Source of the DNA: Aphrocallistes beatrix
Taxonomy: Eukaryota; Porifera; Hexactinellida; Sceptrulophora; Aphrocallistidae
Assembly: GCA_963281255.1 (NCBI GenBank)
Contig: OY725494.1
Location: forward strand, 4,911,934 to 4,975,933
Direction: 5' to 3'
Length of the DNA: 64,000 bases
How positions within the stretch are numbered: position 1 is the first letter of the stretch; each line of letters starts with the position of its first letter. The position numbers and the translations under genes were made by a program. Below are positions 4,723-57,323 of the stretch, in pieces. The notes beneath the pieces were generated by a model that was not told where the DNA came from, did not search any database, and worked only from the letters and a program-made list of their open reading frames with translations.

Positions 4723-5031
4723 TCATTGCAGAAGTTTCCTGTATCGCTCAATCTCTAAAATCAGCTGATTTTTTTCTTTTTCGAGCGAGGTTTTCTCATC
4801 CTTCATTCTCCGAACATCGCTTTCAAGATTGGAGTCTATCTTTTTGATTTTTTTGTCGTAGTTTTTTTTGTACCCTCTTTGTTTCAACTTCCTGCGCCAC
4901 ACCTTGACAATCTTTTTATCGTCCTCCGAGAGATGGTCGGTGAATTCATCCAAATCTTCCAGAGATGCTTCCCGAATGAAACTTTCCTTCAATTGTTCGC
5001 CTTTAGAATTTGTAATTTTGAATTCAGACAT
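4723..5031 (-). CDS. Maf-like bZIP-family protein, copy 1 (102 aa)
   Basis: Single-exon gene starting at the ATG at 5031; the open frame extends a few codons upstream but without ATG. Residues about 22-45 resemble the Maf extended homology region (a helix ending in SEDDKKIVKVW). Next comes a basic region RRKLKQRGYKKNYDKK, then a heptad coiled coil to the C-terminus. It is the copy closest to true Maf proteins, whose basic region reads RRRTLKNRGYAASCR. Here the invariant Asn is Gln and the invariant Arg is Asp. Six paralogues occur in the window. A TATA box lies 62 bp upstream. From family knowledge it should dimerise through the zipper in the nucleus; whether it binds DNA is doubtful given the replaced contact residues. 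Confidence 0.75.
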   Translation of the reverse strand: MSEFKITNSKGEQLKESFIREASLEDLDEFTDHLSEDDKKIVKVWRRKLKQRGYKKNYDKKIKKIDSNLESDVRRMKDEKTSLEKEKNQLILEIERYRKLLQ

Positions 5032-5084
5032 TTCAGCTTTTACTCTCAAATTTTTACAGTTTTATTATACTAGCCTTTAAATCT

Positions 5085-5093
5085 CTTTATATA
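5085..5093 (-). promoter_or_regulatory. TATA box of bZIP-like copy 1
   Basis: On the minus strand the sequence is TATATAAAG, 62 bp before the ATG at 5031. All seven family members have a TATA motif at a comparable place. Confidence 0.6.
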
Positions 5094-5099
5094 CCTCTT

Positions 5100-7597: not shown

Positions 7598-7599
7598 TA

Positions 7600-8312: not shown

Positions 8313-8586
8313 ATGGCGGAAGGCCTGTACAGGTTGGGAGACTATGTCTACATGGAGAGTCTGCCCCCCCCTCAGCCCTACCAGATCTGTCGGGTGGAGG
8401 AGCTGAGGAAGAACTCCAAAGGCAGCGTTGAGGTCTACGTGAAGTGTTTCTTCCGACGGAGAGACCTCCCCACTGCGCTGGTCCAGCTGGCGGACAGACA
8501 CGCCAGTCAGATGGAGCAGGACCACATCTACGAGGTGGAGGAGGAGAGAGACCGCATGCGGACCCAAGGGATGGAAGTGGAGGATG
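8313..8586 (+). CDS. MTA exon 1 (BAH domain, first half)
   Basis: Encodes residues 1-91 plus the first base of codon 92. It includes GDYVYMES and FFRRRDLP, hallmarks of the MTA BAH domain. The donor is GTGAGT at 8587. Confidence 0.92.
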
Positions 8587-11500
8587 GTGAGTTCTATTTA
8601 TAGACTCTTTAGTTTGTTATTGTCTATTTTTTCAGGAATAATTTGCGAGTATCTGGATGAATTATAAACAGTAAACTACTCAGTATATAATTGGGTTGAA
8701 CTCATTGGTCAGATTGTAGTATATTTTAGTACTGTTGTGCAAACACCTTCAAAATCTCCGGAATTGGGAAGAAGGCTAACTCTGAACTTCTTCCACGCAA
8801 TCTGAACTGGGAGCTGTTAGTCGAGATCTTCGGGAGGAGATTTACCATTTGGGGACTTTAGGTTCCAAGAATCCCGAATTAACCTTCTAACTTATATATT
8901 CCTGAACCAATCAATACTGAGACTATATTTTGAAGGGAAACCTCAATTTATCCACAGCTGTTGGTTGGATCCATTTCTCACAGCATCCATGGTTGGATCC
9001 ATTTCTCACAGCATCCATGGTTGGATTCAGTTTCTCATGCAACAGGTCTGACTAATGTGAGATATCAATAATCCTTTATTAGAAACTGATTATTCATATT
9101 TTGCATATTTCGAAAAGTATTGACAAATAATCTGACCAATCAGCTCCTCTCCCTGGCCCACCTCCCACGATGCATACTAGCTTACCGTGGTGGTAGATAT
9201 CTAAACAGTTTTAAAGGAGGTTTGGGAGATGTTTTCTGTGCCATTTCCGATCAGGATACTTAGTGGAGTATTGAATGACGCATTAACTATCTCCAACGTT
9301 GATCAATCAGGAATTCACACCTTTCCTCTAATTGCTTGCTATATTATCAACTTGAAGATATTGAATTTCCCTAACTACTTGATGATACGTATGGAATTTG
9401 CTGTATACCTGGTCATTACTTGAATATACTGAAAGGACGGTACGTACATTATGACGGAGAGGTTTCAACATCAATTTTTAATTTTAAAATCGTTTCTTCT
9501 CTCAAGAATTAGATGCACTGCTTTCACTCTGTTAGTTATGGTTGAGGTACCATGGATACATTGATTCAACTCGTTTAATTAATTAATTAAGATTGTGAGA
9601 AATTTTTTTAAATCTTAGATACTCAAATATCGATATACAGCTATTGTTGTTACCTAGGGAAAATAAAATCTCGGACTATAGTGGAAGAAAAATGTAATTG
9701 GGATATATTTTTAGACTCAATTAACATACTTTTGGGGTTTAGTTGTAACCTATAAGTTTGTGTGGAGTCCTGCCATACTACAGCTTCCTACACTGTTCCA
9801 CTGCTCAGCACCACGGCCCCCCACAGGCATGGGCGTAGCGACCAAATATTATTTGGGGAGGCTGGATATATTTTAGGGGGGCCCATTATTTAGATCAAAT
9901 TTCAAAGTGATTTATTTATTTTGGGGGGGGCGAGTGAAAGTTTTTGGGGGCCAGGCCCCCCCATGGCTACGCCCATGCCCACAGGCTCCAAACCTGGGGG
10001 TAGCCCCCCCCCAGGTACCCACACTTGGCGCCTATGCCCCTCTCACATGTTATCTATCGATTTAGGCGTATGAAATGTATCGGTTTGAGACTAGGAGCGT
10101 ATCTCTGTAGAGCTGTATACTCTGTGTGTACTAGGTTAGTCCATGCTCCCAGCCTGGGTCCATGGACCCTTAGTGGTCCACAAAGATATCAGGGGTCACA
10201 GGATTATAAATTCTGTATTACGGTTAAGAGGAGGGATCACCGAATAGAATAATTGCTTAGGAGATTCACAGCCAAAACAGGCTGAAACCGCTGAGTCAGT
10301 CTCCATCATCTGATTCATCTATGTCAGAGAATAAACTGATTATGAAAGGAGGAAGTCGTGTCTAAATTTAACTCGGGGTAGTTAAAAATATTTTTTATAT
10401 TCTCCTTCCAAATATGGTAATACTCGTATTACTATTCTAAAAATAGAATTATCATAATTGTGTGGTGTTTACTCTTAAATACTTTCAAATTGGATCACTG
10501 TTTAATGATTTTCCAATTTTATTTTGCTTATTTCATTAATTAAACTTTAATAATCACAAAAATTCCTGGAAATATGAAATAAGATGTTTGTTGCTAATAT
10601 CGCATTGGAATGTCTGAGAATGAAACTTCAACCAATCACTTTCCTCTCTTTCACTATGATTTAATCACGAGCTAATACAATAGTGTTTTACTTTCGTTTA
10701 AAATTAAATATATTCTAAGTATTTGCGTATTCTAATTTGTTTACTTGACACTTCTACACATTGTTGTTCTATTTTTATTAGTAAATATGGTTTCAGTACT
10801 TGTTTACAATCGACTCTGAAACAAATACTCACGCATCATCAGATGTTGTGTTGATTTTAGGATTCTAATGCGGTCTACTCAATATTGGCTAGAACAGGGC
10901 CGGAAACCTTTTGAATGAAGTGTGCCAGTTTATCTATAATGTCGACACATTTATGAACTTGTGTGCCAGTGGCAGGCCTGAATATACATAAATGTGGTGT
11001 GTCGACAGATTTATTTTCAACTCCGCGTAGGTTACCTGGACGAGAATGTATTCTTAAAATAAATCCAAAATTATATCTTTCGACTTGAGGCCCCAATATG
11101 TCACACTGTGTGCCACCTTTTCATTTAACCTCGATTAAATCTCTGAAATACGACACAAGCGCTGCTCCCAAAAGTGTCGTATTTCGGAGGTTTACCTGAA
11201 ACAGACTTTTTGGTTCACTTCTCACGACACAGTTTGGATCCCAGTTAACCAAGTTCTATATTTATCCCAGTTCTAAAAATAGGAATTGTATCAATCCACT
11301 GAATTCATGAACTCAACACTCAATAGTCACACTACGCCAGCTCTGAGCTGTCTACAAAACTAAGCACTATAAGCTATGCAGTGAATACATGCAGTCTAGA
11401 GTCATATGGACCATGGATAACAGCGTAGCTAAGCTATAAGTTCAGAGTCCTGCAGAACTTGTCGAGGTCTTTCTTCGTGAATTTCATCTGACTGCAGTCA

Positions 11501-14500: not shown

Positions 14501-17463
14501 AAACTAGCTAACCAATGATTTAACTCTTTCCCGAGAAAGGATCAAATAATAGTAAATTTCTAAATTTCGTCCTCACCAAAGCAGGAATCAGCGTCCCACT
14601 CTGTTCTATTTTTAGACAACCTCTCCATCGAGGGGATATGGGGCGGGATCACGGACGTGTCGAGACACCAGCTGAAGCACAGAGAGCTGTTCCTCTCCAG
14701 ACAGATGGAGACCTTCCGCATCGACGCAGTGCGAGGGAAGTGCAAAGTCACAGTCCTGAACGAGCTGGAGAGTCTGGTCTCCTACCTGAAAGACGAAGAC
14801 AAGTTCTACTACTCCATGGTCTACGACCCCAACCAGAAGACGCTGATGGTGGACAAAGGTAGGCACCGTATCCATGGTCCAACTCAGCATTATCATACAA
14901 GTCCGAGCTGTACCTTCTAATGATTAATCCTATTTACGTACAAAGTGTCCCCTCGCCCTCCTAGATAAATGTGTCCCCTTGCCCCCCAGATAAAAGTGTC
15001 CCCTCGTCCTCCCAGAAAATGTGTCCCCTCGCCCTCCTAGATAAATATGTCCCCTCGCCCTCCTAGATAAATATGTCCCCTCGCCCTCCCAAATAAATGT
15101 GTCCCTCGCCCTCCAAAATAAATGTGTCCCCTCGCCCTCCCAGAAAATGTGTCCCCTCCCAGATAAATGTGTCCCCTCCCAGATAAATGTGCCTGTTCCG
15201 TAGGAGAGATGCGGATTGGCTACAGGTACCAGGCCGAGATCCCGCCCATCCTTGCAGACCCGCAGGCCGAAGACAGCCGAGACCTGAAACAGCTGGAGAC
15301 ACCTGTGTGGGTCCCGTCCCAGCTGCCAGAGGCCGACATAGAGAAGTTCCTAATTATAGCTCGTTCCATTGGGACATTTGCGCGGGCTCTCGTCGACGAC
15401 AGCAACAATATAAATAGAATGCCACTGAGACTGGGCGCCGCCACTGCTTCCAGAGACATAACTCTGTTCCACGCCTTGGATACGCTCCACACGGCCAAGT
15501 ATGACCTGGCGGCCGGCGTGTCTGGGTTCGTCATCAACGGACGTCCGATCGTGTGCTGCGATGAGTTGGAGGCCTGGACAGCTGAGGAGGCCAGTTTGTT
15601 CCAGCAAGGTAGGTCAATATACGTAATTTGACACCTTTAATCACATTCCCTAATTGCAAATACAGTCGACTCCGCTTAATAGGGTCACATCGGTCAGAGG
15701 ACATTTCGCCCCGATTAAGCGGAGGACCCTATTAACCGAAAATATTTTGTATTCGCTTCTATGTGTGAGAGCTATTCCGGTCCTGCCAAAGTTACCCGAT
15801 TAAACAGTGACCCTATTAAGCGGAGTTGACTGTACTTGGTTTATATTGTACTAGCGCGGCTAGCAGACACTTTGTGTTTGCAGAGCCGCCCTTCGGGCGC
15901 CAGGGAATATCAACAAATTCAGAAGTCCCTACGGCTGCCAAATATTGATGACTGCCACTAATCCTTTTCAAATTTGCTTGCTTTATGAATTTATTGTAAA
16001 CAAAAAGAATTATCAATATCCTTTAATAATAATAATAATAGGTCAAAAGCTAGTCCCTAGCATATTTTAGATTTGTTTACTTTATGTATTTATTGTAAAC
16101 AAAAGTAAACAAAATATTGATTATATATATTAAAAAATATGATATTCGAAATCACGCCCCTAAAAACCACATGTCAACCGTTGAAAGCAAGTTTCTAGCA
16201 TATTTTTGAGATTTGTTTACTACAAGTTTATGTACTGTGAGTATTCCTGGTGATTATAATATGCAACTTTGTGAAAAATGAATAAATGATTGAATAATGA
16301 ATTGATGACTAAATGAATGGATATTTGGGTGATTAATAATGTGAGAGTGTCCCCCCTTTCTAGGTCTGATAGAGAATAAAGACTTTCTCTTCATCCAACG
16401 GAAGTTTTTCCCTAAGAAATCCCTCAAGTCCGTAATCTCGTACTACTACCTGTGGAAGACCACGCAGCAGTACCAGATACAGAGGAAGGTTAAGCTGGCG
16501 GACAAGCAGAACGACCTGAAAGAGGTGATTGTGCACTTAATCCGAGCGTCCGGACCTCCCACGCAGGCCCCAACGAACCTGTCCGGACAAGCCCCAACGA
16601 GTGGAGAGCTGCCAACTGCCATCCCAGCTGACACCCAAGTTAAATCAGCTGATGGGCAGAAAGCGTGTGAGAGTTGCTACGCAACGGTTAGTAACAAATG
16701 GCATGTGTGGGGGGACGCAACGCGTGGCTGCCGCGTGTGCAACCACTGTATGAACTACTGGCGCAAATACGGCGGTCTGAAACTGCCCACCAGCTGGGAG
16801 CACCACGAGAAACACCCCGAGCAGATCTACACCTGCGGGCAGTGCAAGAAACAGTTCAACCGACAGGAGAGACTCACGAACCACTTAAGACAGCACCAGC
16901 CGTTCTGCTGTCAGGTGTCCGGATGTGGCAGAGCGTTTAAGAGTAAGAGCACTTTGCGGCGACACATTTCCGGGCAGCACCAGAATCAGCCGGGGTACCC
17001 CATGCAGCCACTCATTTCTCCTTTCTTGATGTTCGCTAACTCGCTTTCTCTGTTCACGCGCACAAAGTTCACGAGAGAAAATGTGTACCGAATGTGTCGC
17101 AATCCGTTTAAGTCTCTGCCACCTGAGTTGATTGAGGTTCCAGAGGATGCGGAGTTTCCGCTCAAAGTCCGCAGGAAAGGTTTGCTGTACACGAAGAAGC
17201 GTTCCATGCATGAAGTGATGGAGCAGCTCAACGAATCAGCGCTCACGCACACTCATCCAACAAGCCCAATCGTGCGCTTCCTCATGAAAGGTTCACACCT
17301 TTCTAAGCCCATGACAGCCCTCCCAGACCCGCCTACCCTCATGCCAGTCCAGAACCCAAAGCGACACCGCCCCACTTCCATCGACGGACAAACTCCAGCC
17401 TCCAAAATGATCAAAGAAGAAACCGGCGCTCCTTCCACTCTCTCCCATTTTAATGTTTCTTAG
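8313..17463 (+). CDS. MTA (metastasis-associated) family protein, NuRD subunit, four exons
   Basis: The joined exons 8313-8586, 14616-14858, 15204-15608 and 16364-17463 give 673 aa; all three introns are phase 1 with GT..AG ends. Domains in order: BAH (about 1-170), ELM2 (from about 174, [13 protein letters not shown]), SANT (about 293-350, with SYYYLWKTT), a GATA-type zinc finger (C409, C412, C430, C433), then two C2H2 fingers (C465/C468/H481/H485 and C490/C495/H508/H513). A tail contains [14 protein letters not shown], which resembles the RBBP4-binding stretch of vertebrate MTA1. In known NuRD complexes MTA is the scaffold that binds HDAC1/2 through ELM2-SANT and RBBP4/7 through the tail. 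Vertebrate MTA1-3, as I recall them, lack C2H2 fingers at this place. Start chosen at the ATG giving [13 protein letters not shown], which aligns to the MTA1 N-terminus; upstream is only an in-frame GTG. Confidence 0.93.
8960..9045. repeat. Short tandem repeat, about 30-bp unit
   Basis: About 2.5-3 copies of a unit beginning GGTTGGATCCATTTCTCACA, the last degenerate. Confidence 0.7.
9829..9977. mobile_element. MITE with GGGCGTAGC inverted ends
   Basis: The left end reads ATGGGCGTAGCGACC and the right end TGGCTACGCCCAT. Flanking copies of CCCACAGGC suggest a target duplication of about 9 bp. The interior is G-rich and non-coding. A related relic (CTTGGTGCCTATGAC) sits near 44950, beside a sequence that in this copy reads CTTGGCGCCTATGCC at about 10024. 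Confidence 0.65.
11434..12132 (-). CDS. Double RING-finger protein with ZAR1-like 3CxxC zinc finger (232 aa)
   Basis: Intronless gene lying antisense inside MTA intron 1. RING 1 uses C12, C15, C29, H31, C34, C37, C46, C49. RING 2 uses C66, C69, C82 or C83, H84, C87, C90, C101, C104. After a Pro-rich linker the C-terminal part has [13 protein letters not shown] (C149, C151, W155), C168/C171, a basic Pro-Phe stretch, and HLCGMC...C (C203, C206, C213). This order matches the 3CxxC zinc finger of ZAR1/ZAR2 oocyte proteins, which bind RNA, except that the first pair is CxC rather than CxxC. RING pairs suggest E3 ubiquitin ligase activity. I know no standard family with this combination. Its GC-rich codons contrast with the surrounding intron. 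A TATA-like stretch lies about 110 bp upstream. Confidence 0.85.
   Translation of the reverse strand: MSSRATATTFTCEHCHSKVETNKKRFINCGHYFCINCIEKNASKKCPTCGGVFDEFTDTPPGQPICSICQDVMGGTKGHLLCCHSFCFGCITEWFEHSGCCPVCKNTSTEISREAPPSLGLEEESYPPPVHIPLDTGIPGSRKGGSFSCECGKKWRSEYAYKNVEQKCGKCRRSVKPFKLKQPKKLTNRKPEERKEAHKRHLCGMCEEIGSDCSQMKFTKKDLDKFCRTLNL
12551..12667. mobile_element. piggyBac-like MITE carrying a TATA motif (P1)
   Basis: Flanked by TTAA on both sides (12547-12550, 12668-12671); ends CCC...GGG. The core reads GGGGTCA, then AAAGTATAAATAGAAA, then TGACCCC, i.e. a TATA-box-like sequence inside a short inverted repeat, followed by CTTTCA/CAATT-rich sequence. A second copy follows 28 bp later. Confidence 0.75.
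12696..12812. mobile_element. piggyBac-like MITE carrying a TATA motif (P2)
   Basis: TTAA at 12692-12695 and 12813-12816 flank a second copy of the same element, same orientation, with ends CCCGAGG and GCTCGGG. The TATAAATAG core and the CTTTCAATT-rich tail are conserved. Confidence 0.75.
12817..13895. other. MTA intron 1, central part
   Basis: No exon recognised. At 13523-13545 there is a fragment of the GC-rich dispersed repeat (ACAAGCGCGGCTGGCGGACA) found elsewhere in the window. Confidence 0.45.
13896..14340. mobile_element. pogo/Tigger-like MITE, family C
   Basis: The termini CAGTCGAACCTGCTATAATG and the inverted ATATACAGGTTCCACTG are flanked by TA. The interior is built of repeated phrases (TATAACGGTCACCTGT, TATAACGGCCAC) in several copies. 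Related in design to families A, B and D but with a different terminal sequence. Confidence 0.8.
14616..14858 (+). CDS. MTA exon 2 (BAH domain, second half)
   Basis: Encodes residues 92-172. It contains [14 protein letters not shown], nearly identical to the vertebrate MTA stretch, and [16 protein letters not shown]. Acceptor TTTTTAG, donor GTAGGC. Confidence 0.93.
14941..15192. repeat. C-rich minisatellite in MTA intron 2
   Basis: About ten degenerate copies of a 22-27 bp unit of the form GTCCCCTCGCCCTCCTAGAT AAAT. It fills most of this 345-bp intron up to the branch-point region of the acceptor at 15203. Confidence 0.85.
15204..15608 (+). CDS. MTA exon 3 (ELM2 and start of SANT)
   Basis: Encodes residues 173-307. 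It opens with the ELM2 signature [11 protein letters not shown] and contains [14 protein letters not shown], highly conserved in MTA proteins, then [16 protein letters not shown], the first SANT helix. Donor GTAGGT. Confidence 0.93.
15663..15832. mobile_element. pogo/Tigger-like MITE, family A
   Basis: CAGTCGACTCCGCTTAATAG at the left and the inverted TATTAAGCGGAGTTGACTG at the right, flanked by TA, inside MTA intron 3. Confidence 0.85.
15850..16363. other. Remainder of MTA intron 3
   Basis: Begins with a fragment of the GC-rich dispersed repeat (AGCGCGGCTAGCAGACACTT), then AT-rich sequence with two partly repeated segments sharing GCATATTTT and GATTTGTTTACT. No exon seen. Confidence 0.5.
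16364..17463 (+). CDS. MTA exon 4 (SANT, GATA and two C2H2 fingers, C-terminal tail)
   Basis: Encodes residues 308-673 and the stop TAG. The rest of SANT ([13 protein letters not shown]) is followed by a GATA-type finger, the conserved [12 protein letters not shown], and two C2H2 fingers beginning [10 protein letters not shown] and [12 protein letters not shown]. The tail has Pro-rich and basic segments. Acceptor CTTTCTAG. Confidence 0.93.
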
Positions 17464-18865: not shown

Positions 18866-18873
18866 TATAAAAG
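18866..18873 (+). promoter_or_regulatory. TATA box of bZIP-like copy 2
   Basis: TATAAAAG, 52 bp before the ATG at 18918; conserved in the inverted copy. Confidence 0.65.
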
Positions 18874-18917
18874 CAGATCTAAACGATGGAAATAAAAGAA
18901 ATAAAAACACAAACAAT

Positions 18918-19346
18918 ATGAATAACATCGAGGCATTTTCAGAGGTTCCATTTGAGGATTATTCAGATGTGTCACATTCTGATTTGGATGTTTATCTGCC
19001 GAATAAAAAAGGTGTTAGTTCCATTCGGGATTGCATTGACACACTCCCTCACTTCCCTTACCTCCCAGACAGCGCTATCCGGGGGATAAAACTGTCCGAA
19101 CTCTACAAGCGGCTGAGTGCCGCGCATGCCAGCAGTGAGGAGATAGAGCAGATTCGCGTTCGGAGACGGAGACTGCAGAAGTCACACTTCAAGAAGAAGT
19201 ACGACCGACAGGGAAGAGAGGCGTTCGAACAGCTGAAGTCCAGTCTGTCTCTCCTCACACTTCAGAAAGAACAGCTGATCCAGGATAGAGCTGAGTTGCA
19301 AGAAGAGATACGTTTCTATGAGAAAAGCTTGCAGCTTGAAGCCTAA
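18918..19346 (+). CDS. Maf-like bZIP-family protein, copy 2 (142 aa)
   Basis: Single exon. An acidic N-terminal 35 residues (SEVPFEDYSDVSHSD) is followed by FPYLPDSAIRGIKLSELYK, matching the Maf extended homology helix, then EEIEQIRVRRRRLQKSHF as the basic region and a Leu/Ile heptad zipper to the C-terminus. Where Maf has the invariant Asn and Arg this protein has Lys and Asp (RRRRLQKSHFKKKYDRQGRE). Nearly identical to copy 4 at 27974-28402. The acidic N-terminus could act as an activation segment; this is inference only. Confidence 0.8.
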   Translation: MNNIEAFSEVPFEDYSDVSHSDLDVYLPNKKGVSSIRDCIDTLPHFPYLPDSAIRGIKLSELYKRLSAAHASSEEIEQIRVRRRRLQKSHFKKKYDRQGREAFEQLKSSLSLLTLQKEQLIQDRAELQEEIRFYEKSLQLEA

Positions 19347-19560
19347 AATTAGTATCGCTACAACCAATGCAATTACTCACTTCAAATAGATTCTCACTGC
19401 TAATTTCTATGAAATGCCAGAACGCAAATATTAGATGCCTGCTTTTATTAAATTATTTGCCCAATCAACTCCGATTGTTTGAGATTTCGCTTAATTAACA
19501 TTATAATGACATTGCGACTACGTGGGATATCTGCTGTGGCTATCTTGAATATGTGATTAA

Positions 19561-24732: not shown

Positions 24733-25772
24733 ATTTATTTTGTATAGAAAAGGTGTGGAAAATTGTTTTCCATTTTGTTTGCAGATGTGTGAAAATTTTG
24801 CTTAGATCTTAGAACTTAATCGTAGTCATATCATTTGACACCTACATGCCAATTTTCATATCTCTACGACTTCCCAATTCTTCAATCAATTCGGACAAAC
24901 ACACACTTAACGACTCAATACATATAAATGAATGACAATGACTTATAAACTTGAAATCTGATTGGTTGACATGGAGAAAATTGTTTAAAATGTAATTAAG
25001 GAATATATTATGCAAATTCTCCTCTGATACTTAGATTCATGGCGTTATAGCATTCATTGTCAGATCCTGTTACTAGATAAATTATACGTGTCGTGGTGGT
25101 CGTTTTTGTTTGTGGTCGTTTTGACTAGCAACCACATTAAGCAATGGCGCATTAAACAAGAATCAATACGTGACATTAGCATTTCTATAGAATTATGGCT
25201 TCTGTGCCATGTGCCATACACAGCAAACTTTGCTATCTCGAACTTTGACCAGAAGGGTTGTTTTGCATTATACGTATAAATGCTAAGGGGATTTTTGAAA
25301 CATTGATGGAACATATGTATTCAGCTGGCTGAAGGCTGATGTAGCTTTATCGATGGGTAGCTAGGACATGATTGGTTGTTGCATGAGCCAATTTATTTTC
25401 AGTATCGGTTCTCTAATGACTCAATTGTATGCATTGTGGCATTAAACATCTTTTTACATTCAAAAGCAACTGTGAAACAAACCCGAGAATGATTGGAACA
25501 TTTGCCACTTTGCTAGGCGAGGTGTTACTTAGATTTTGTTCCTTTTAGTCGAGAATTAATTAGAATCCACTGAGATTTGAATAAGTTTATAAAATGGATA
25601 CTTGCGTTTTTTCAGTTTATTCGTTCAGTTATTCTGTATAATTGAATATTATAGTAATAATGAATTAATTAATAAATATTTATTTTGGACAACGAAAACA
25701 AATAAAATTGCAATTTCTAAAAAAAGTTGTAAACATTAAAAATCCCTTTTTATGAGAACAACAATCCGCGAG
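24733..25772. other. Intergenic, nothing recognised
   Basis: No gene, repeat or RNA recognised before the promoter of bZIP-like copy 3. Confidence 0.45.
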
Positions 25773-25811: not shown

Positions 25812-26222
25812 ATGGACTACGAAACTAAAGACACAGACATCTCCAATCTTCTCTCAGAATTTTTCGAGTTAGATTCGGAGAAAAATGAACTTAGTTCCAT
25901 TCCTGATTGCATTGACACACTCCCTCACTTCCCTTACCTCCCAGACAGCGCTATCCGGGGGATAAGACTGTCCGAACTCTACAAGCGGATGAGTGCCGCG
26001 CATGCCAGCAGTGAGGAGATAGAGCAGATTCGCGTTCGGAGACGGAGACTGCAGAAGTCACACTTCAAGCAGAAGTACGACCGACAGGGAAGAGAGGCGT
26101 TCGAACAGCTGAAGTCCACTCTGTCTCTCCTCACACTTCAGAAAGAACAGCTGATCCAGCTGAAGAATGAGCTGGAAGAAGAAATTAACTTTTATGAAGA
26201 AAACACCAACACAACCAATTAG
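25812..26222 (+). CDS. Maf-like bZIP-family protein, copy 3 (136 aa)
   Basis: Single exon. I chose the ATG at 25812 (MDYETKDTD) over the upstream in-frame ATG at 25752 because the TATA box lies between them. The N-terminal 27 residues are acidic and unlike copies 2 and 4. The middle (SSIPDCIDTLPHF to KEQLIQ) is almost identical at DNA level to copies 2 and 4; the last 20 residues diverge again. Basic region RRRRLQKSHFKQKYDRQGRE with Lys and Asp at the usual Asn and Arg positions. A Leu zipper follows. Confidence 0.8.
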   Translation: MDYETKDTDISNLLSEFFELDSEKNELSSIPDCIDTLPHFPYLPDSAIRGIRLSELYKRMSAAHASSEEIEQIRVRRRRLQKSHFKQKYDRQGREAFEQLKSTLSLLTLQKEQLIQLKNELEEEINFYEENTNTTN

Positions 26223-27764
26223 TCAACAAATATGCTACCAGCTAATTAGCTCTAAACCACGCTTTTCTACGCTTATTATAAGATAGTTAATATTGCTATG
26301 CAAATATCAAATGCTGAATCCTGAATTTTATTTACTATTATTGATATGTGCGGCTATTTATAACTATTTGTTTACTCGGAAAATTTCGTGATTTCCTTTG
26401 TAGGATTTAAGACATTGTTGCCACAGTTATTAGTGTTAGAAGAAATTGATTTTATTGGTTCGCTTTCGTTGTGCGACTAATGAATGCAATTCCTTAGCAT
26501 CAATTAGCAACCATTAAAAAATGATGTGACGTCATTAACTGTGATTGCTCTAGTCATTCCCATACAAAATATGCCAATCAACCGATGTAATTTTGTATTA
26601 ACTTCTACGTATTTATAGAAACTATTTCCTATTTCCTTGAGAATTGTTTTTTGAGTTGTCTCTTTTTTTTGAGTTGTCTGTTTTTTGAGTTGTCTGTTTG
26701 AGTTGTCCCATTGTAATGGATTTTAAAGTGCTTTCCTAGCTTACGTTTTGAAGACATAATGAAAGTATTTTTAAAACGACTGCAAAACTTTCGGCCGAGA
26801 TTAGAATTGATTGATTTATAATTTCAACTAATTTAAATGTTCCAATGGAACTAGCACTTACAAGCTAAGTACGTATGACCACTGATCCAACACTTATAAG
26901 CGAGATTCAATCCTTATAGTCGAGACGTCTTGCTTTTCGTAAGCTAAATTTATTCGGAGCGAATTGAGATTCGTAATAGGGGTCGATTTTATAAACGAAC
27001 GGAATTTGCGCATTTTTGTTTACATAGAAAGTGTGGACGTATGTTGCAATGGGTATTATCCTTGATTTTAAGCTGTGTACAGCAAGTGATAGAAAATCAA
27101 AAAAATTGATTGGTTGTAACCCCAGAGATCTAACTATACACCGCCAGCTGTGTTATGATAACTCCGTAGAGACGCTGGAGGGAGAGTTGGGATTTTATCC
27201 TCAAATCCCAACTGTATATAAATAGGGATTTGATTTCGAATCAACCCAACTCTAAATCTCTGATTTGAGCAATCCTGTTCCAATAATGAGCCTTCAATGT
27301 AAGTCCGATTTCTATGGAAATCTGCTCTCTTATTCGAATCCCAAAACTGCTTGACTACATGATATAATCCATCTGGAGAACACTGGTTTCGGCTCTGTAG
27401 AAAATGTCCATATTGAATTATACATTATCAATGTCTCCTATTGTTATAAAATGAAATTTAACCTTTTCATTTCGAAAGTGTAGACTTGGTGAATCAAATT
27501 GTCCAATATAATGCTCCTATACTGAGATAGCTTGAACTATCATAGCACTCGACGAGTTGAAACTGAAGTCTGGAAGGTCTGCAATGCTGTACCAAGATTC
27601 AATCTTAACAGCGAGTAACTTCTGTCCGTTTGCTCTTCCTCGAAATCTACTGGGCAAATTGCACCAAACTTACCATATGTTTTCTATGTGATGGGGATCT
27701 GTAGATGGTTACAATTTATAAAATCTTACCGCCTTTTTCAGGTGTCAAATTGTATTGGCCAATC
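26223..27764. other. Intergenic with short tandem repeat
   Basis: About three to four copies of TTTTTTGAGTTGTCTG lie at 26645-26712. No gene recognised; a 64-codon frame at 27031-27225 has no domain. Confidence 0.45.
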
Positions 27765-27973
27765 AGAGTATTCAAGATATCCACAGCACATATTCCACGT
27801 AGACGCAATGTCATTATAATGTTAAATAAGCGAAATATCAAACAATCGGAGTTGATTGGGCAAATAATTTAATAAAAGCAGGCATCTAATATTTGCGTTC
27901 TGGCATTTCATAGAAATTAGCAGTGAGAATCTATTTGAAGTGAGTAATTGCATTGGTTGTAGCGATACTAATT

Positions 27974-28402
27974 TTAGGCTTCAAGCTGCAAGCTTTTCTC
28001 ATAGAAACGTATCTCTTCTTCCAACTCAGCTCTATCCTGGATCAGCTGTTCTTTCTGAAGTGTGAGGAGAGACAGACTGGACTTCAGCTGTTCGAACGCC
28101 TCTCTTCCCTGTCGGTCGTACTTCTGCTTGAAGTGTGACTTCTGCAGTCTCCGTCTCCGAACGCGAATCTGCTCTATCTCCTCACTGCTGGCATGCGCGG
28201 CACTCAGCCGCTTGTAGAGTTCGGACAGTTTTATCCCCCGGATAGCGCTGTCTGGGAGGTAAGGGAAGTGAGGGAGTGTGTCAATGCAATCCGGAATGGA
28301 ACTAGCACCTTTTTTATTCGGCAGATAAACATCCAAATCAGAATGTGACACATCTGAATAATCCTCAAATGGAACATCTGAAAATGCCTCAATGTTATTC
28401 AT
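27974..28402 (-). CDS. Maf-like bZIP-family protein, copy 4 (142 aa)
   Basis: Single exon, differing from copy 2 at only about five residues (for example Pro for Arg in SSIPDC, Gln for Lys in KSHFKQKYD). Same layout: acidic N-terminus, Maf-type extended homology helix, basic region with Lys and Asp in place of the invariant Asn and Arg, and zipper. Its promoter region was copied again at 34929 onward by the tandem duplication whose left edge falls within its first codons. Confidence 0.8.
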   Translation of the reverse strand: MNNIEAFSDVPFEDYSDVSHSDLDVYLPNKKGASSIPDCIDTLPHFPYLPDSAIRGIKLSELYKRLSAAHASSEEIEQIRVRRRRLQKSHFKQKYDRQGREAFEQLKSSLSLLTLQKEQLIQDRAELEEEIRFYEKSLQLEA

Positions 28403-28446
28403 ATTGTTTGTGTTTTTATTTCTTTTATTTTCATTGTTTACATCTG

Positions 28447-28454
28447 CTTTTATA
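28447..28454 (-). promoter_or_regulatory. TATA box of bZIP-like copy 4
   Basis: TATAAAAG on the minus strand, 52 bp before the ATG at 28402; the same spacing as copy 2. Confidence 0.65.
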
Positions 28455-28475
28455 CAATTTGAAATACTGAAAGTC

Positions 28476-35007: not shown

Positions 35008-35009
35008 AA

Positions 35010-42848: not shown

Positions 42849-44327
42849 TTATTTGCTGGATTGGTTTGGACAATTGAGGAATTGATCGATCCTCTTTGAT
42901 GTATGAGATGTAGGGATTGGCGCTGAAGCACTTTTCTTTTTTGTATACTTTAAATATAAATTTTCTGCTGTCGTTCCAGAACTAGTTCTATAGGAATCGG
43001 AGCTACCATGTCTCTGGTTTAAGTTGCTGTCATGTATGCTATACAATATGGACTTCCCAAACTTACTGAAATTTTTTTTATCAGAAAGCCCTGTCAATGC
43101 TAAGTCAAGATCATCATTTATTCCACTAACCATGTCGCTCTTGTTAGAAGATTTGTCCATCTCCACTTGAGTATCCTTGATGACATTACGCGCTTTTTCT
43201 AAATCTCCCTTCTCAGCAATCTCAGCAGCTTTCTCTAACGCATGAGTTGCTTTGATTCGATTTCTCTGTTCGTCTACTTCCAAGGAAGTGCTGAGTGAGG
43301 CAGGTCTCAAGGATCGAGGAACACTCACTTCAGTACTCACAGTGGAAAGATTCTTTTTAATCACATTCAAGTAGTTAACACTTATTTTCGCGTATATCTG
43401 GGATATGCTAGTGCAACTGGAATCCTTCTTCATTTCAGGGAGATGGAATTCTACTATGGCATCTCGCTCTTCTTCTGCTTGAATGTCTCCTATGGGGACT
43501 TCTCCTTTCCTGTTCTCATCACTCAAGTTTGGAGGGACTTTTGAGATAATTTCCTTCAGTTTTGCTCCGTTACACGCCTCTATGCGAAGTGATATATTCT
43601 GTGCGACAGTGGAAAGGATTCCTCCAAGGCAGTTTGTGAAAATTTCAGGAATTTGTTCAGTTGTCTCAATGAAATAGTAGAGTCCATTCCATGTCTTGCT
43701 GAATTCCCTCAGCATATTCACGTTATGATCACTTCCGAATCCAAATGTATTGATCGTAAAACTTTTGTTTTCTCCGTACATTATCTTCATAGCCTTGATG
43801 ATAGTTCGTGTGCTCGTTAGTCCTACGTTAGCCATTCCGTCTGTGAAGAGCAAGACAGAAGCAACGTCTGCTTTCTCTCCTTTTCTCTCATTCATCATCG
43901 ACATTCCTTGGAACAGTCCTCCACTCAGGTTAGTGTTACCACCAGCGTTTATCTCATCGATTCTATCATTCAGTGTGGCACTGTTCGTCAGTGTCATCTT
44001 AGTAAGAGGAGCTATCACGTCTACTTTATCATCGTACATTACAATTCCCAGACGATCGAAAGTTTTCAAGTGTGAAACAATGAAACTTAGCACATTCTTA
44101 ACAAGTTCTATTCCATCACCTTTCATCGATCCACTACGATCTATGACTGCTACCAGGTCTATCGGCGCTCTCACTCCTCCATCCAATGGTAAGGAAGGAG
44201 CTGTCAGTTTAAGATCGATGCAGAAGAAGCATGGTTCCATGGGATAGGATGTGTATTCTGGATGGACGCTTAACTTTATCTCTTTTTCGTCAATGTTCAG
44301 GTTATTAAGAGCTGAGCATTCTGCCAT
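42849..44327 (-). CDS. vWA-domain protein of the WAV3-like type (492 aa)
   Basis: Single exon. A vWA domain spans about 54-235 with a complete metal-binding MIDAS site: DRSGS (D63, S65, S67), T132 in NTNLSGG and D163 in FTDG. The segment TFGFGSDHNVNML and the following IPEIFTNCLGGILSTVAQNI resemble vWA proteins of plant WAV3/EDA40 type and their animal relatives. The C-terminal 150 residues are helical and charged (LEKAAEIAEKGDLEKARNVI) and end in a Ser/Lys-rich tail. No signal peptide or membrane segment, so probably cytosolic; it has no RING, unlike plant WAV3. A decayed paralogue lies at 46140-47172. An AT-rich TATA-like stretch (ATAAATAAAA) lies about 45 bp upstream. Confidence 0.85.
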   Translation of the reverse strand: MAECSALNNLNIDEKEIKLSVHPEYTSYPMEPCFFCIDLKLTAPSLPLDGGVRAPIDLVAVIDRSGSMKGDGIELVKNVLSFIVSHLKTFDRLGIVMYDDKVDVIAPLTKMTLTNSATLNDRIDEINAGGNTNLSGGLFQGMSMMNERKGEKADVASVLLFTDGMANVGLTSTRTIIKAMKIMYGENKSFTINTFGFGSDHNVNMLREFSKTWNGLYYFIETTEQIPEIFTNCLGGILSTVAQNISLRIEACNGAKLKEIISKVPPNLSDENRKGEVPIGDIQAEEERDAIVEFHLPEMKKDSSCTSISQIYAKISVNYLNVIKKNLSTVSTEVSVPRSLRPASLSTSLEVDEQRNRIKATHALEKAAEIAEKGDLEKARNVIKDTQVEMDKSSNKSDMVSGINDDLDLALTGLSDKKNFSKFGKSILYSIHDSNLNQRHGSSDSYRTSSGTTAENLYLKYTKKKSASAPIPTSHTSKRIDQFLNCPNQSSK

Positions 44328-47739: not shown

Positions 47740-49076
47740 CTACGGGCATTCAATAAGTAGTCGTTATCATAGTATACTTTCCCCAAAACAAGTAATATAA
47801 TTAATATCAATGCTGCAATTTCTCGAACTACTCTCCTTGATGCTGTATAACTAGTATTAGCCTCTTAATCCAATCCAAAAAACTTTTTTGAAGTCTTCAC
47901 GCGGTATACCTTTCATATACTGAAAAATCGCCGATCCGAGGTGAGGCCGACTTTCGAATTCCCTCCCTGACAGGTGTTTCTTCAGCTTAGGGAAGAGCCA
48001 AAAGTCGCATGGAGCGAGGTCTGGTGATTAGGGAGGAGGATCTAGCTCTACAACTCTCAGACTTTCCAACTTTTCCATTACCAGCTTGGTCTAGTGGGGT
48101 CGGGCATTATCATGCAATAATCTCAATCCTCGAGTCCCAGTCCTTGGCCGTCGATTGTGGTAGAATTTCTCAACCTCAGATAGGCACTCATTCATGTAAA
48201 ATGATCCAGTAATAGTGGTATTCTTGGGGACACAAATCTGGCACACTGGACCATAAGAATTAAAAAAAAACAGTACATAACCTTGGGGTTCCGGAAGTCA
48301 TGTCGAGGGATCATTGGTGGGTCCTGGCCTTTAGCTACCCATACTTTGTTAGCTTCCTTTGACAAAGGCTCGCTATAACGCACCCAAGTCTCATCACCAG
48401 TCACGATCTCGAATAGACTCCAGGAGTCGGTTCTATCGAAGTCAGAAAGCAACTTTTGAGCACATTGAACCCTCTTAGTTTTTTGGGCCTGTGTTAGTGC
48501 ATGCGGGACCCACCGAGCGCAGATTTTCATAAATTGCAAATTGTCACACACAATGGTATGAACGGTTCCCGTTGAGACCCCAACTGCATTAGCTATCTCT
48601 ACCAATGAAATATGAGGGTCTTCTTCAAGTAATTCGGAAACCTCGAGGACAAATTTGTCACTGGCGCCGGAAATCGGCCTCCCTGCTCTGGGCTTATCTT
48701 CTATCGACTCTCTTCCCTCACAAAAACGTCGGGTCCAGTCAACTATCGTGGAATATGGAAGAGTTCTATCATTATAAACCACAATCAAATCCTTGTGGAT
48801 GTCGGTTGAAGAAACTTGGAGCAGTGTACGAATCTTTACATAGGCTCGCTGCTCAGTTTTGAAATCTGCACTCTCGGAAGCCATAATAAATGCCAGTATA
48901 TAAAAATGCCAAACTAATAATAGCCACAGTTTAAAAACCAAAGCTCAGAAGTGAAAAAGTAAAGTATCATTTGAAAGAGCATCGGTAGGGTTACATTAGA
49001 TATGCTAACCCAATTCTGAATCAAATGAAACAACCAAGATAAATAACAAAAACGACTACTTATTGAACGCCCGTAG
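47740..49076 (-). mobile_element. mariner element (1337 bp)
   Basis: Inverted terminal repeats of about 26 bp start CTACGGGCATTCAATAAGTA (left) and CTACGGGCGTTCAATAAGTA (right, complement). TA flanks each side (47738-47739, 49077-49078). It contains one transposase gene in reverse orientation, which is broken. Confidence 0.95.
47857..48881 (-). pseudogene. mariner transposase, frameshifted
   Basis: ATG at 48881. The N-terminal helix-turn-helix region, the WVPHALT motif and the first catalytic Asp (TGDETWV) are intact. A run of nine A (plus strand, about 48262) causes a frameshift after VMYCFF. Downstream the other frame retains LLHDNARPH (second Asp) and SPDLAPCDFWLF (third Asp), consistent with DD34D, but with two in-frame stops. 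It can no longer make a full transposase. Confidence 0.93.
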
Positions 49077-49197: not shown

Positions 49198-50427
49198 CTA
49201 TTTAGAAGAGAATATTTGAAGTCGATAGTTGTCATTAAGAGACGCAACAACTAACTTAAGCTCGCTAGTTAGAGCTATTCCAAAAGGTTTTGTGAGTCCC
49301 CCCACTTCGTGTCCAGGTGTTCCTATCGTGTGGAGGAGTGCTCCTTCTCCGCTGACTATCTTGACCTGACTAGCTCCCCGATCACTGATGACCATGTTCC
49401 CATTCTCGTCCAGGCAGAAGAAGGCGGGTTCTATTACCAGCATACCGGCGCCTCTTGTGACCAGGGAGCGTATTTTCTCTCCGGCGTAGGAGAGCACGTA
49501 CACACAGGGAGAGTCCCAGTCTGTGAGAACGTAGATCTCGTCAGGCGTCAGTTTAACGTCACACGGGTACCTCAAGCTGTCGTGTGATAGACAGCGCTGG
49601 AATTGGAGGTCTCGATCTAGGACTTGAATCCGACTGTTGCAGCGATCAGCGACGAAGACTTCTCCGTCGACAGAGACAGTCAGCTGTCTAGGGTCATTAA
49701 ACTGAAGATCCCCAGACCCTCTGCTTCCTATCTTCTTCCTGAAATGGATGTCAGCTCCCACTTTAAAATGGAACACGGAGTGCTCTACTATGTCTGTCAC
49801 GTATACACTGTCACCATGGACCGCTATTCCCCATGGATTCCTCATTTGCTGATGCGTGAAAGTTCCCAGGAATTCCCCCGTGGCTGAGAACACTGACACG
49901 CGTGAGGCGTCGACCATTCCTTCCGCGATGTAGATTTGATTCGTATTGGGTTCGATTGCGACACCTCGAGGCGACCAAAGGTGTCCGCATGTCTGGCCTC
50001 TCTTCGCTACGGCCACTATTGGTCCTATGTCCTGATACTTTGGGACATTCAGTGGCTCAACAGCTGCCACTTCTTCCACCACCTCCCCCACACCTCGGAT
50101 CAGCTGCTCCAGCTCCTGGCTACGGCCTCGGAATATCACGCGGGTCTCAGGCAGAAGAGTCCGAACTTCTGCGAGTTTCTCGTCAAGGCCCGCCAGGATC
50201 CGCTCTTGGAACTCGCGGAGCTCGTTCGATCGGAGTCCGCGCTCCGTCTCGGTTCTCATCTTCATCAGCTCCTGCTCCTTACGCGCCAGAGCAGCTGGGC
50301 GCGCTGCGATTTCTTGAACTTTGTCGAGGAGTTCCATTCGTCTCTGGTCGAGACACCTGGCTAGGTGGTCGAAAAAGTGGTTTATTTGCACCTCAAGCTG
50401 TGACTCTTCAGGAAATTGAGTGGCCAT
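49198..50427 (-). CDS. NHL-repeat protein with coiled coil (409 aa)
   Basis: Single exon, GC-rich relative to its flanks. Residues about 10-135 form a charged coiled coil (QEIAARPAALARKEQELMKM). From about 140 to the end there are five or six NHL repeats, for example SPRGVAIEPNTNQIYIAEG, NPWGIAVHGDSVYVTD, DPRQLTVSVDGEVFVADRCN and KPFGIALTSELKLVVASLND, which should close as a six-bladed propeller. It resembles the C-terminal half of TRIM-NHL proteins (TRIM2/3/71 type) but has no RING or B-box. In TRIM-NHL proteins this propeller binds RNA or protein. No membrane segment. Confidence 0.88.
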   Translation of the reverse strand: MATQFPEESQLEVQINHFFDHLARCLDQRRMELLDKVQEIAARPAALARKEQELMKMRTETERGLRSNELREFQERILAGLDEKLAEVRTLLPETRVIFRGRSQELEQLIRGVGEVVEEVAAVEPLNVPKYQDIGPIVAVAKRGQTCGHLWSPRGVAIEPNTNQIYIAEGMVDASRVSVFSATGEFLGTFTHQQMRNPWGIAVHGDSVYVTDIVEHSVFHFKVGADIHFRKKIGSRGSGDLQFNDPRQLTVSVDGEVFVADRCNSRIQVLDRDLQFQRCLSHDSLRYPCDVKLTPDEIYVLTDWDSPCVYVLSYAGEKIRSLVTRGAGMLVIEPAFFCLDENGNMVISDRGASQVKIVSGEGALLHTIGTPGHEVGGLTKPFGIALTSELKLVVASLNDNYRLQIFSSK

Positions 50428-53293: not shown

Positions 53294-54520
53294 TTACATA
53301 CTTACCAACGATCCCGTTTTTCAGACATAAGTTGAAAATAATGTCCCGCGAAACTTTCCAAAAAGTAGAATTGTCCCGATTCTCAGTGTATAGGATTAAT
53401 ATATCCCACCAAATAGCTCAATATCCCACCAAATAGCTCTATATCCCGCTAAATAGCTCTATGTCCCACCAAATAGCTCTATATCCCACCAAATAGCTCT
53501 ATATCCCGCTAAATAGCTATATGTCCCGCCAAATAGCTCTATATCCCGTTAAATAGCTCTATATCCCACCAAATAGCTCTATATCCCGCTAAATAGCTCT
53601 ATATCCCGTTAAATAGCTCTATATCCCACCAAATAGCTCTATATCCCACCAAATAGCTATATATCCCGCTAAATAGCTCTATATCCCGCTAAATAGCTCT
53701 ATATCCCGTTAAATAGCTCTATATCCCACCAAATAGCTATATATCCCGCTAAATAGCTATATATCCCGTTAAATAGCTCTATATCCCGCTAAATAGCTCT
53801 ATATCCCACCAAATAGCTCTATATCCCACCAAATAGCTCTATATCCCACCAAATAGCTCTATATCCCGCTAAATAGCTATATATCCCGCTAAATAGCTCT
53901 ATATCCCGTTAAATAGCTCTATATCCCACCAAATAGCTCTATATCCCACCAAATAGCTCTATATCCCGCTAAATAGCTATATATCCCGTTAAATAGCTCT
54001 ATATCCCGCTAAATAGCTCTATATCCCGTTAAATAGCTCTATATCCCACCAAATAGCTCTATATCCCACCAAATAGCTCTATATCCCGCTAAATAGCTCT
54101 ATATCCCGCTAAATAGCTCTATATCCCGTTAAATAGCTCTATATCCCACCAAATAGCTCTATATCCCACCAAATAGCTCTATATCCCGCTAAATAGCTAT
54201 ATATCCCGCTAAATAGCTCTATATCCCGCTAAATAGCTCTATATCCCGTTAAATAGCTCTATATCCCGCTAAATAGCTCTATATCCCGTTAAATAGCTCT
54301 ATATCCCACCAAATAGCTCTATATCCCGCTAAATAGCTCTATATCCCGTTAAATAGCTCTATATCCCGCTAAATAGCTCTATATCCCGTTAAATAGCTCT
54401 ATATCCCGTTAAATAGCTCTATATCCCGCTAAATAGCTCTATATCCCGTTAAATAGCTCTATATCCCGCTAAAATATTACTTATGTCCCGATTTTTTCCT
54501 TGCTGAGGTTGGCATGTATT
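53294..54520. mobile_element. MITE expanded by an internal minisatellite
   Basis: The outer ends are CATACTTACCAAC (left) and GTTGGCATGTATTAAT (right), similar to the MITE at 46511-46969. ATGTCCCG occurs on both sides of the interior, suggesting that the satellite grew from a word native to the element. A degraded relative with GGTTGGCATGC lies at about 58240-58395. Confidence 0.6.
53395..54475. repeat. 20-bp minisatellite, about 54 units
   Basis: Unit AAATAGCTCTATATCCCNNN, where NNN is ACC, GCT or GTT (once GCC), with occasional CTAT for CTCT. The variants recur in the order ACC-ACC-GCT-GCT-GTT with local shifts, a higher-order period near 100 bp. Stop codons occur in every unit frame, so it is non-coding. 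Confidence 0.95.
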
Positions 54521-55040: not shown

Positions 55041-55077
55041 ATTTATGTTGAATTAATCATTAAAAAATTGGTCGAAA

Positions 55078-55437
55078 ATGGCTGAGAATTACATGGGGAG
55101 CTTCGTGAATTCTTCCATTCAGTTTTCACGAGACTTTCCGTATCTGAGTGACAGGCAGATACGAGACTTGCACTACATCGATTTCGAACTCACTCTGCAA
55201 TCAGTGGGAGCTAACGTCTACGAAATCTTCAGTTTGAAACTGAAACGGAAAAGATTGAAGAAATGTCTTTGGAAGCAAAACCATGACACAGCATTTCGAA
55301 TAGAATGTCAGAGGTTGGAGGCTATTGTGGAGCGTTTGATTGGAGAGAGAAACGATCTGTGCGATCTAAAGGAATCTCTCATTGCCGAGATGGAGCACTA
55401 CAAGCGAATGCTGCAAGTTGAGCCTACTCAAAAGTAA
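55078..55437 (+). CDS. Maf-like bZIP-family protein, copy 6 (119 aa)
   Basis: Single exon. Contains FPYLSDRQIRDLHYIDF, then LKLKRKRLKKCLWKQNHD as the basic region with Lys and Asp at the positions of the invariant Asn and Arg, and a zipper (RLIGERNDLCDLKESLIAEM). Closest to copy 7. Confidence 0.78.
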   Translation: MAENYMGSFVNSSIQFSRDFPYLSDRQIRDLHYIDFELTLQSVGANVYEIFSLKLKRKRLKKCLWKQNHDTAFRIECQRLEAIVERLIGERNDLCDLKESLIAEMEHYKRMLQVEPTQK

Positions 55438-56957
55438 CTAAGTGTCAGTAACTCTTGGTGCTAGGACTGTAAATATTGTGTCTAATTAATCATTGCTCAT
55501 TTATCATCAACTTTGCATGGGACACTAACTACTCCTACTGTACTGTCCACTCATTATTTATCTCTCTTTTTTTTGTAGTATTTGTGCTATTATAGGTTGT
55601 TAGTTATTAATTTTTAGATTTTATTATCCAAATTTACATTCTACTAGTAGTTGAGCGGTTCGATAGCTATAACGTCTCGTTCTTCAATCAAGTCTCAACA
55701 AATCACTGATGTTTTTCATTTGCTTTAATTAAAACTCGATTCGGACTAGGAATTTTGCTAACTCATTTCCGGTTAAGCCATTTAAGGCGGGGAAACCCTA
55801 AAAGTGCGGGGTACATTCTATAAATAGAATTGACCCCAAGGGTAAATCGGGGTTTAAGCCACCACTCACATTTAGTTCTAAACACGCTAAATAGTAGTGT
55901 GCTTGTATTCAGTATTCATTGGACTGTCACAATCAAACAAGCTGAGTTATATTTTTAGTTTACTTGTACGTCTACATTTTATCATTAAATAGTATTAAGT
56001 AGTAGGCCCCTTGAGGTCGTGAAACACAATACACTATTTGTAGCAGGGAAAACATTCAAGTATCACCAAGCGATTGTATAATTTCTACGTTTAAATTCGA
56101 TGGTTTACGAGTTATTAGACAATTTAGCATATTGGTCACATCTAGTAATTTGTCGAATAACTTGTAAACCATTGAAAAAAGTCCAAATTTTTCGCATCAA
56201 CCCATTCACTGCTCAGTTCTATGCAAACAACTTTAAATTAAAAACACCTAGGCTTTGAAAATCACTAAATTCGCCACAAATATAATCTATTGTACAATAG
56301 TATTATGACTAATCAAAATTTTAGTGACGAATATTTATATATTCTGGTAGTACATTCCTGAGCTCTATTCTTCGTAGTTAATTATTTAAGGCAGATCATG
56401 TAGTATTAGTTCAATCATCTCCTATCGCATCCCTAGTCCAAAATCCGCAAGTTACTGTGAGGCCTTATATGTAGTAGGCTATGCTGGAATATATCCTTAC
56501 AAATTCAAATTAGTACAGGAGGTGCCTATTGATTCAATCTATGCTGTATTTGGACCACAAGTCGATCGGAGTTCGTTGCTGATTTATTCGTATCGAAAGT
56601 TACACCACCATTCCTTTTTGATATTTCGAGTTAATCTCTGAATAACTTATTTGATAAGAATTCTTGCTTCTTTCAGGATTAATATTGTCTTGATAACTGA
56701 ATAATTAATAAAATATACTAGCATGCAATTATTAAATTCTTATTTCAACAGTAAATAATACAAATGAAAACTAACAAAACAATATCAAAAGTGCAGAGGA
56801 TCTAGCATAACGCTATAGTGGCTCTCTACGAAGGTTCACAGATTAGTTAAAAGTGGGAGTTTTATGATTCAATATATTAATTGCATGGTTTGTTGCGCGC
56901 CTAACTGTTAATGCATTGCAACATCATTCATCTTGCCTGGGACACTCCACTAGAATA
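55438..56957. other. Intergenic with one TATA-bearing element
   Basis: Contains the P5 element (55762-55845). Apart from that no gene or repeat recognised. Confidence 0.45.
55762..55845. mobile_element. TATA-bearing element, type 2 (P5)
   Basis: CATTTCCGGTT...GGCGGGGAAACCCTAAAAGTG then GGGGTACATTCTATAAATAG and TGACCCC. Matches the complement of 37692-37790. Confidence 0.55.
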
Positions 56958-57323
56958 CTAGAATGAGGTATCGCTAGCATGCATCTGTTCCAGCAATACC
57001 TTGTAGTGGCTGATTTCTTCGACGATGCAGTCCTTAAGTCGAGATAGATCGCTCTTCTCCTGTGCGAGTCTACTCACGACTGTTTCAAGCTTACTGCATT
57101 CCATACGCTCCAATCGGTCGTGGTCCTGCTTCCAATTGGATTTCTTCAAACTCTTTCGTTTCAACTTAAGAATAATAGCCTCGACGCTGCTAGCTCCCAC
57201 TAATTGCAGTGCTAGTTCGAAATCTATGCAATCCAAGTCTCGAATTTGTTCATCAGTTAAATAGGGAAATTCTGGCATTATTTGGATGGAAGAATCGACC
57301 AAAATTTGATTCTTCGCTTCCAT
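56958..57323 (-). CDS. Maf-like bZIP-family protein, copy 7 (121 aa)
   Basis: Single exon. FPYLTDEQIRDLDCIDFELA is the extended homology helix. The basic region LKRKSLKKSNWKQDHDRLER has Lys at the Asn position and Asp at the Arg position. Zipper RLAQEKSDLSRLKDCIVEEI. Divergent orientation to copy 6, 1.5 kb apart. Confidence 0.78.
   Translation of the reverse strand: MEAKNQILVDSSIQIMPEFPYLTDEQIRDLDCIDFELALQLVGASSVEAIILKLKRKSLKKSNWKQDHDRLERMECSKLETVVSRLAQEKSDLSRLKDCIVEEISHYKVLLEQMHASDTSF

Follow-up and report, generated by a model that had tools for sequence, protein, structure and literature searches.

Among animals, the repertoire of basic leucine zipper (bZIP) proteins is described as remarkably stable, with little change in the motif, in the available text of a survey of 18 species that includes three sponges (PMC4736632). 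Departures from the usual DNA-contact residues are reported from elsewhere: oomycetes carry expanded "novel" bZIP classes in which Cys, Arg or Val stands in for the contact Asn (PMC4046829). Among the literature matches listed, this is the only comparable expansion, and their titles and abstract openings hold no such Asn-less expansion in an animal. Replacement of the Asn need not abolish binding, since Zta N182S is reported to gain a new binding site (PMC13228511), and maize opaque-2 is reported to lose specific binding when its Arg is changed to Lys (PMC4046829). An animal bZIP protein that lacks the Asn, CREBZF (also Zhangfei or SMILE), is reported to be non-DNA-binding and to act through partners (PMC3796484, PMC9917820). 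The subfamilies closest to the genes described here are the small and large Maf proteins (MafG, MafA, MafB; PF03131), with the contact signature NxxYAxxCR, and the CNC proteins (Nrf2, BACH1, Skn-1), with the signature NxxAAxxCR.

The window analyzed here is a 64,000-nucleotide stretch of the genome of the glass sponge Aphrocallistes beatrix (contig OY725494.1). An earlier note on this DNA had described seven tiny, intronless, Maf-like bZIP genes that have lost both the contact Asn and the contact Arg, the latter always to Asp. All seven open reading frames are present, each beginning with ATG and ending with a stop codon, and whole-genome searches with two of the proteins located two further genes with the Arg-to-Asp change, bringing this group (hereafter D-type) to nine. 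Positions are those of the window unless a contig is given:

4723..5031, minus strand: small bZIP gene, Q...D type; 102 aa, the most divergent copy; bZIP_Maf 28.8 bits
18918..19346, plus strand: small bZIP gene, K...D (Phe) type; 142 aa; bZIP_Maf 22.6 bits; structure predicted
25812..26222, plus strand: small bZIP gene, K...D (Phe) type; 136 aa; bZIP_Maf 20.2 bits, under the cut-off
27974..28402, minus strand: small bZIP gene, K...D (Phe) type; 142 aa; bZIP_Maf 22.9 bits
52335..52673, plus strand: small bZIP gene, K...D (Trp) type; 112 aa; bZIP_Maf 19.5 bits, under the cut-off
55078..55437, plus strand: small bZIP gene, K...D (Trp) type; 119 aa; no bZIP_Maf from the Pfam scan
56958..57323, minus strand: small bZIP gene, K...D (Trp) type; 121 aa; no bZIP_Maf from the Pfam scan
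C8:4978783-4979121: eighth D-type gene, about 3 kb past the window end
C13:691041-691331: ninth D-type gene, on another contig

In all seven window genes the coding domain is a single open reading frame, so that they are intronless in this sense, and introns may still occur in the 5' UTR. For the gene at 25812, an alternative upstream ATG at 25752 would give 156 aa instead of 136. The host genome does have introns, as judged from BAH and ELM2 exons (the exon reading is ours) that lie between the first two bZIP copies at 8313-8603 and 15167-15631; these two exons probably belong to one intron-bearing gene, which we take to be an animal MTA-type gene. The D-type proteins contain little beyond a Maf/CNC DNA-binding head and a zipper, and at approximately 102-142 aa a transactivation domain of the usual size would not fit. 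Two of the genes are carried by an inverted duplicate pair (18866..19558, plus strand, and 27761..28454, minus strand; 97.5% identity over 694 bp), which comprises the gene with ∼50 bp upstream and ∼210 bp downstream and is recent. The six D-type copies outside the recent trio of 18918, 25812 and 27974 are only 27-39% identical to the protein from 27974.

Several other features are found in the window. A 1.9 kb repeat occurs at 28382-30313 and 34926-36841 (96.7% identity); its edge extends over the opening 20 bases of the 27974 gene, and 74 bp of it recur at 18866-18938, where the 18918 gene starts. A satellite at 53400-54473, which separates two of the bZIP genes, consists of approximately 54 copies of a 20-base unit. 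Single open reading frames encode a VWA protein (42849-44327), an NHL-repeat protein (49198-50427), and a transposase-like fragment with a weak match to a Mos1-type helix-turn-helix (48192-48884). A further open reading frame, at 59601-60578, has a near-start hydrophobic stretch followed by Thr/Gln/Pro-rich repeats of 30 and 120 bases, and gave no Pfam match at E 0.01. No Rfam family matched the window at its gathering score.

The homology of the group to bZIP proteins is beyond chance. A search with the Pfam bZIP_Maf model (PF03131), which had been suggested as a check, gives a mixed result when the proteins are scanned singly: three of the seven (4723, 18918, and 27974) exceed the curated cut-off, two (25812 and 52335) fall under it, and two (55078 and 56958) are unreported, the last pair being 50% (E 1.8e-25) and 52% (E 1.1e-26) identical, respectively, to the 52335 protein. 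An in-house profile matches all seven at E 1e-15 to 7e-20, partly by construction because it was seeded with them; a more independent test, the profile of the nine Asp proteins against the PDB, retrieves MafG (1.1e-5) and Nrf2 (1.2e-5). Structure prediction, also suggested as a check, was applied to one copy (18918) as a single chain, and it yields helices at residues 51-56, 59-68, and 73-141, the last of which is one continuous basic-zipper helix. Confidence by blocks is pLDDT 93-99 from residue 51 to 140, and the model superposes on DNA-bound MafA with an rmsd of 1.2 Å over 92 residues (1.2-1.3 Å on the MafA and MafG chains). Extended homology region, basic region, and zipper, as first proposed, are common to all seven copies. 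A contig scan for bacterial relatives using the 56958 protein returned 91 pattern matches and zero confirmed relatives.

The replacement of the contact residues holds in an ungapped alignment. In the window genes the Asn position is Lys in six of seven and Gln in one, the Arg position is Asp in seven of seven, the Maf Tyr position is aromatic (Phe, Tyr, or Trp), and the second Ala position is Lys in seven of seven, as the earlier note had read by eye. Across all nine D-type proteins, Arg to Asp and Ala to Lys are invariant (9/9 each), Asn is replaced by Lys in eight and by Gln in one, and the Cys/Ser contact position is occupied by Tyr, His, or Arg. The Maf signature is accordingly found in none of the nine (and in four of four large Mafs of the same genome), and neither is the CNC signature (0/9). 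Positive charge has nonetheless been kept, since the gains of Lys at the Ala (9/9) and Asn (8/9) positions offset the loss at Arg: the net charge of the basic region is +6 to +9 in the D group (mean 7.7), compared with 8.2 in the large Mafs, 7.1 in the CNC-like proteins, and 8.5 in the class with Met at the Asn position. None of the 61 domains counted has a proline in the stretch from the basic region to the end of the zipper.

The genome-wide search for paralogs, likewise suggested, places these genes in a bZIP family that is real, unusual, and larger than first reported. In the 100.5 Mb genome the Pfam model gives at least 65 matches, all above the cut-off, and 76 distinct domains match the in-house profile at E no higher than 1e-3. 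In these 76 domains the Asn position is Met in 23, Asn in 19, Lys in 10, Ser in nine, Val in six, Arg in four, and Gln, Ile, Leu, Gly, or Ala in one each, while the Arg position is Arg in 56, Asp in 10, Lys, His, or Tyr in two each, and Cys, Asn, Ser, or Gln in one each. Loss of the Asn (57 of 76 domains) is therefore a property of the family, and not of the seven window genes alone; the change from Arg to Asp marks the D group and one other protein, and the window group is the extreme of the family, furthest gone in the replacement of contact residues. That other protein (L081, C2:493500-493880) keeps the Asn, and its Arg-to-Asp change is perhaps an independent case.

The 57 domains that are aromatic at the Maf Tyr position retain the Asn in only five (the four large Mafs at C18:38-54 kb, and L081), so that 52 of 53 small Maf-type domains are without it. 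In the 15 domains with Ala or Ser at that position (the CNC-like ones and two conventional-looking bZIPs), the Asn is kept in 13. The small members of the family are single open reading frames of 94-181 aa, and they include a second, Nrf2/CNC-like set that keeps the Asn (L039, L045, L053, L054, L062, L065, L066, L073, L075, L077, and L078). The family tree is built on few columns and has many open forks; on it, a single loss of Asn in the small family is not rejected by the AU test (p-AU 0.51), and parsimony counts 12 changes at the Asn column and six at the Arg column.

Maf-like, the term first applied to these genes, proves right for only part of the protein. In their extended homology region, their aromatic residue at the Tyr position, and their continuous basic-zipper helix, the D-type proteins are like the small and large Mafs; unlike them, they have replaced the Asn, Ala, Cys, and Arg contacts and carry a zipper of the CNC kind. 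The CNC zipper pattern (hydrophobic, Lys/Arg, Lys/Arg, hydrophobic at a14, a21, a28, and a35) is present in 9/9 D-type proteins, in 8/9 of the small CNC-like proteins that retain the Asn, and in the PDB chain of Nrf2. It occurs in none of the four large Mafs, 20 Met-class, eight Ser-class, or five Val-class proteins, in one of six others, and in neither the MafG nor the MafB chain. Conversely, the Maf-type core (Lys/Arg, hydrophobic, hydrophobic or Asn at a14, a21, and a28) is found in 0/9 D-type proteins. Membership of the Maf subfamily was rejected, given that both the contact signature and the zipper core fail. The likeness to the CNC proteins and to the small Nrf2-like genes of this genome is in turn limited to the zipper core and to profile similarity, as the D group lacks their contact signature, has an aromatic residue for the first Ala, and shows no other domain in its small open reading frames.

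Scores and profiles point the same way. By position-specific scores, the homology and basic regions of the D-type proteins are closer to large Maf than to CNC in 9/9, whereas the zipper is closer to CNC than to large Maf or the Met class in 8/9, although these zipper scores are mostly low, the lead is slight in some cases, and in 5/9 CNC is itself outscored by the Ser or Val class of this family. Among three profile comparisons, the D group is nearest to the small CNC-like set (E 5e-11 over 112 columns), the other two being with the Met class (E 2e-7 over 51 columns) and with large Maf (E 5e-6 over 91 columns). The yardsticks themselves behave as named: a small CNC-like profile built from seven of the Asn-keeping set retrieves Nrf2 first in the PDB (1.3e-14), and the large-Maf profile retrieves MafA (1.5e-19). 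A single clade of D-type and CNC proteins is not rejected by the AU test (p-AU 0.16) but is absent from the best tree.

These patterns suggest how the proteins may work. Lys or Arg at two central "a" positions, where Maf has Val, Ile, Tyr, or Leu, together with the reverse at the flanks, would disfavor D-type homodimers and favor pairing with large Mafs or with Met-class small proteins, much as Nrf2 pairs with MafG. Within such a dimer the D-type half could not make the usual half-site contacts, and the dimer would then either fail to bind or bind only through the half-site of the partner, so that the D group would titrate or retarget its partners within a family that is altering its DNA-reading residues. 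From the sequences and the single model we infer the choice of dimer, the loss of DNA reading, and the effect on targets alike. A home-made pairing score, with weights that we set, leaves the choice of partner unsettled, as large Mafs came out marginally ahead of self-pairing for six of the nine D-type proteins, level with it for two, and behind it for one (25812), and some CNC-like partners gave the best scores. Our main reading, with a probability of roughly 0.45, is that the D-type proteins are CNC-type dimer partners that leave the Maf half-site unread and modulate Maf-type partners. The block of Maf/CNC factors first proposed would accordingly narrow to blocking or modulating Maf-type partners. 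CREBZF/SMILE, also without the Asn, may serve as a precedent for a partner that does not bind DNA (PMC3796484, PMC9917820), and it differs from the D group in being a single mammalian member of the ATF/CREB family whose interaction motifs are different and which is reported to homodimerize.

Constant replacement by Asp had been taken as a sign of selection, and for the older copies this is upheld. In a pairwise likelihood script, all six pairs of the four 52335-type proteins give omega of 0.04-0.32 with omega = 1 rejected (2dlnL 9.9-29.9), at synonymous sites that are near saturation; omega = 1 is also rejected for 27974 against the C13 copy in a saturated fit (2dlnL 33.5). Several distant pairs are saturated, including one large-Maf control pair (t 27.8), and omega is rough there. 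In the recent trio, dN/dS is indistinguishable from 1 (2dlnL 0.5-1.3), a result that had been named as one that would speak against selection but has little power here, with 0-2.5 synonymous and 2-10.5 nonsynonymous changes over 92 shared codons; these three copies are compatible with neutrality.

The neutrality of the trio would also be expected if the genes were young, fast-turnover intronless duplicates of little or no function, many of them near contig ends. Decayed-looking copies do exist elsewhere (L052:2348-2707 and L048:4369-4656, one without an ATG before the domain and one with a truncated zipper), and of 38 gene clusters, 10 have a contig end no more than 150 kb away, compared with 2.1 expected under uniform placement (three of the 65 matches, on contigs whose length was lacking, were left out of this count). 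Clusters near contig ends include those at C18:37-56 kb, C8:20-27 kb, C13:20-27 kb, C11:4.846 Mb, C6:5.570 Mb, and C2:7.585 Mb. Nevertheless, all nine D-type open reading frames are intact, the 52335-type pairs are constrained at near-saturated synonymous divergence, and two sites of the basic region are fixed as Lys and Asp in spite of the low identity of most copies to 27974. Intact frames and constraint in the older pairs disfavor plain decay, which may yet apply to the recent trio, and we consider a family of little function improbable.

Under the preferred reading of the D group as dimer partners, the conservation of the basic region requires comment. Identity in the homology region, basic region, and zipper is 0.51/0.61/0.46 in the D-Trp set and 0.72/0.76/0.60 in the D-Phe set, compared with 0.53/0.92/0.58 and 0.57/0.76/0.42 in the Met sets, 0.43/0.63/0.57 in the large Mafs, 0.27/0.44/0.28 in the CNC-like proteins, and 0.21/0.50/0.22 in the Ser class. 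The basic region is thus the best conserved segment in every subfamily set examined, the D sets included, which a pure decoy would not need. Its excess over the homology region is smallest in the D sets, as expected of a helix that is kept for charge or folding while bases go unread.

The same conservation could arise if the whole small family, D type included, reads new half-sites with contact residues that are re-arranged and charge that is kept. The recurrent Met, Lys, Ser, and Val classes among the 57 Asn-less domains, retention of the Arg in most of the family, the balanced charge of the D group, and the precedent of Zta N182S (PMC13228511) would fit such a role. For the D group in particular, the exchange of Arg for Asp introduces a negative charge where DNA is contacted, the change to Lys in opaque-2 is reported to abolish specific binding (PMC4046829), and the small basic-region excess is contrary to base reading; we regard new half-site reading as unlikely on balance. 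Its broadest form is similarly doubtful, namely that an animal lineage broke the near-universal five-residue bZIP contact code at scale, deriving from a Maf/CNC ancestor over 50 small proteins, each encoded by a single exon, in which Met, Ser, Val, and Lys recur as classes at the Asn and one class has shifted positive charge away from the Arg and onto the Asn and Ala, all of them together forming a new combinatorial DNA-reading set.

A net charge of +6 to +9 that persists after the base-reading residues are gone might instead reflect a basic helix that binds RNA or protein, or that is only a nuclear signal, with the zipper working with other coiled-coil partners. None of our results points to RNA or to partners outside the bZIP proteins, and the homology region of the Maf/CNC DNA-binding head has been kept, and we consider this improbable. 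Overall, the D-type proteins probably act either through pairing with other regulators or through a new mode of DNA reading.

The family resembles the oomycete "novel" bZIPs in its lineage-specific expansion and in the replacement of the Asn in recurrent classes (PMC4046829). It differs in that the second site, Asp in the D group, is occupied by Arg or Lys in the oomycete classes C-R, V-R, R-R, and N-K, and no Asp class is seen among the oomycete classes in the available text of that study (PMC4046829). With at least 57 Maf/CNC-type domains lacking the Asn in one genome, this sponge offers a natural set for asking whether function can survive the replacement of the invariant Asn and Arg, and the same set bears on whether dimer networks expand through the addition of partners that read no DNA.
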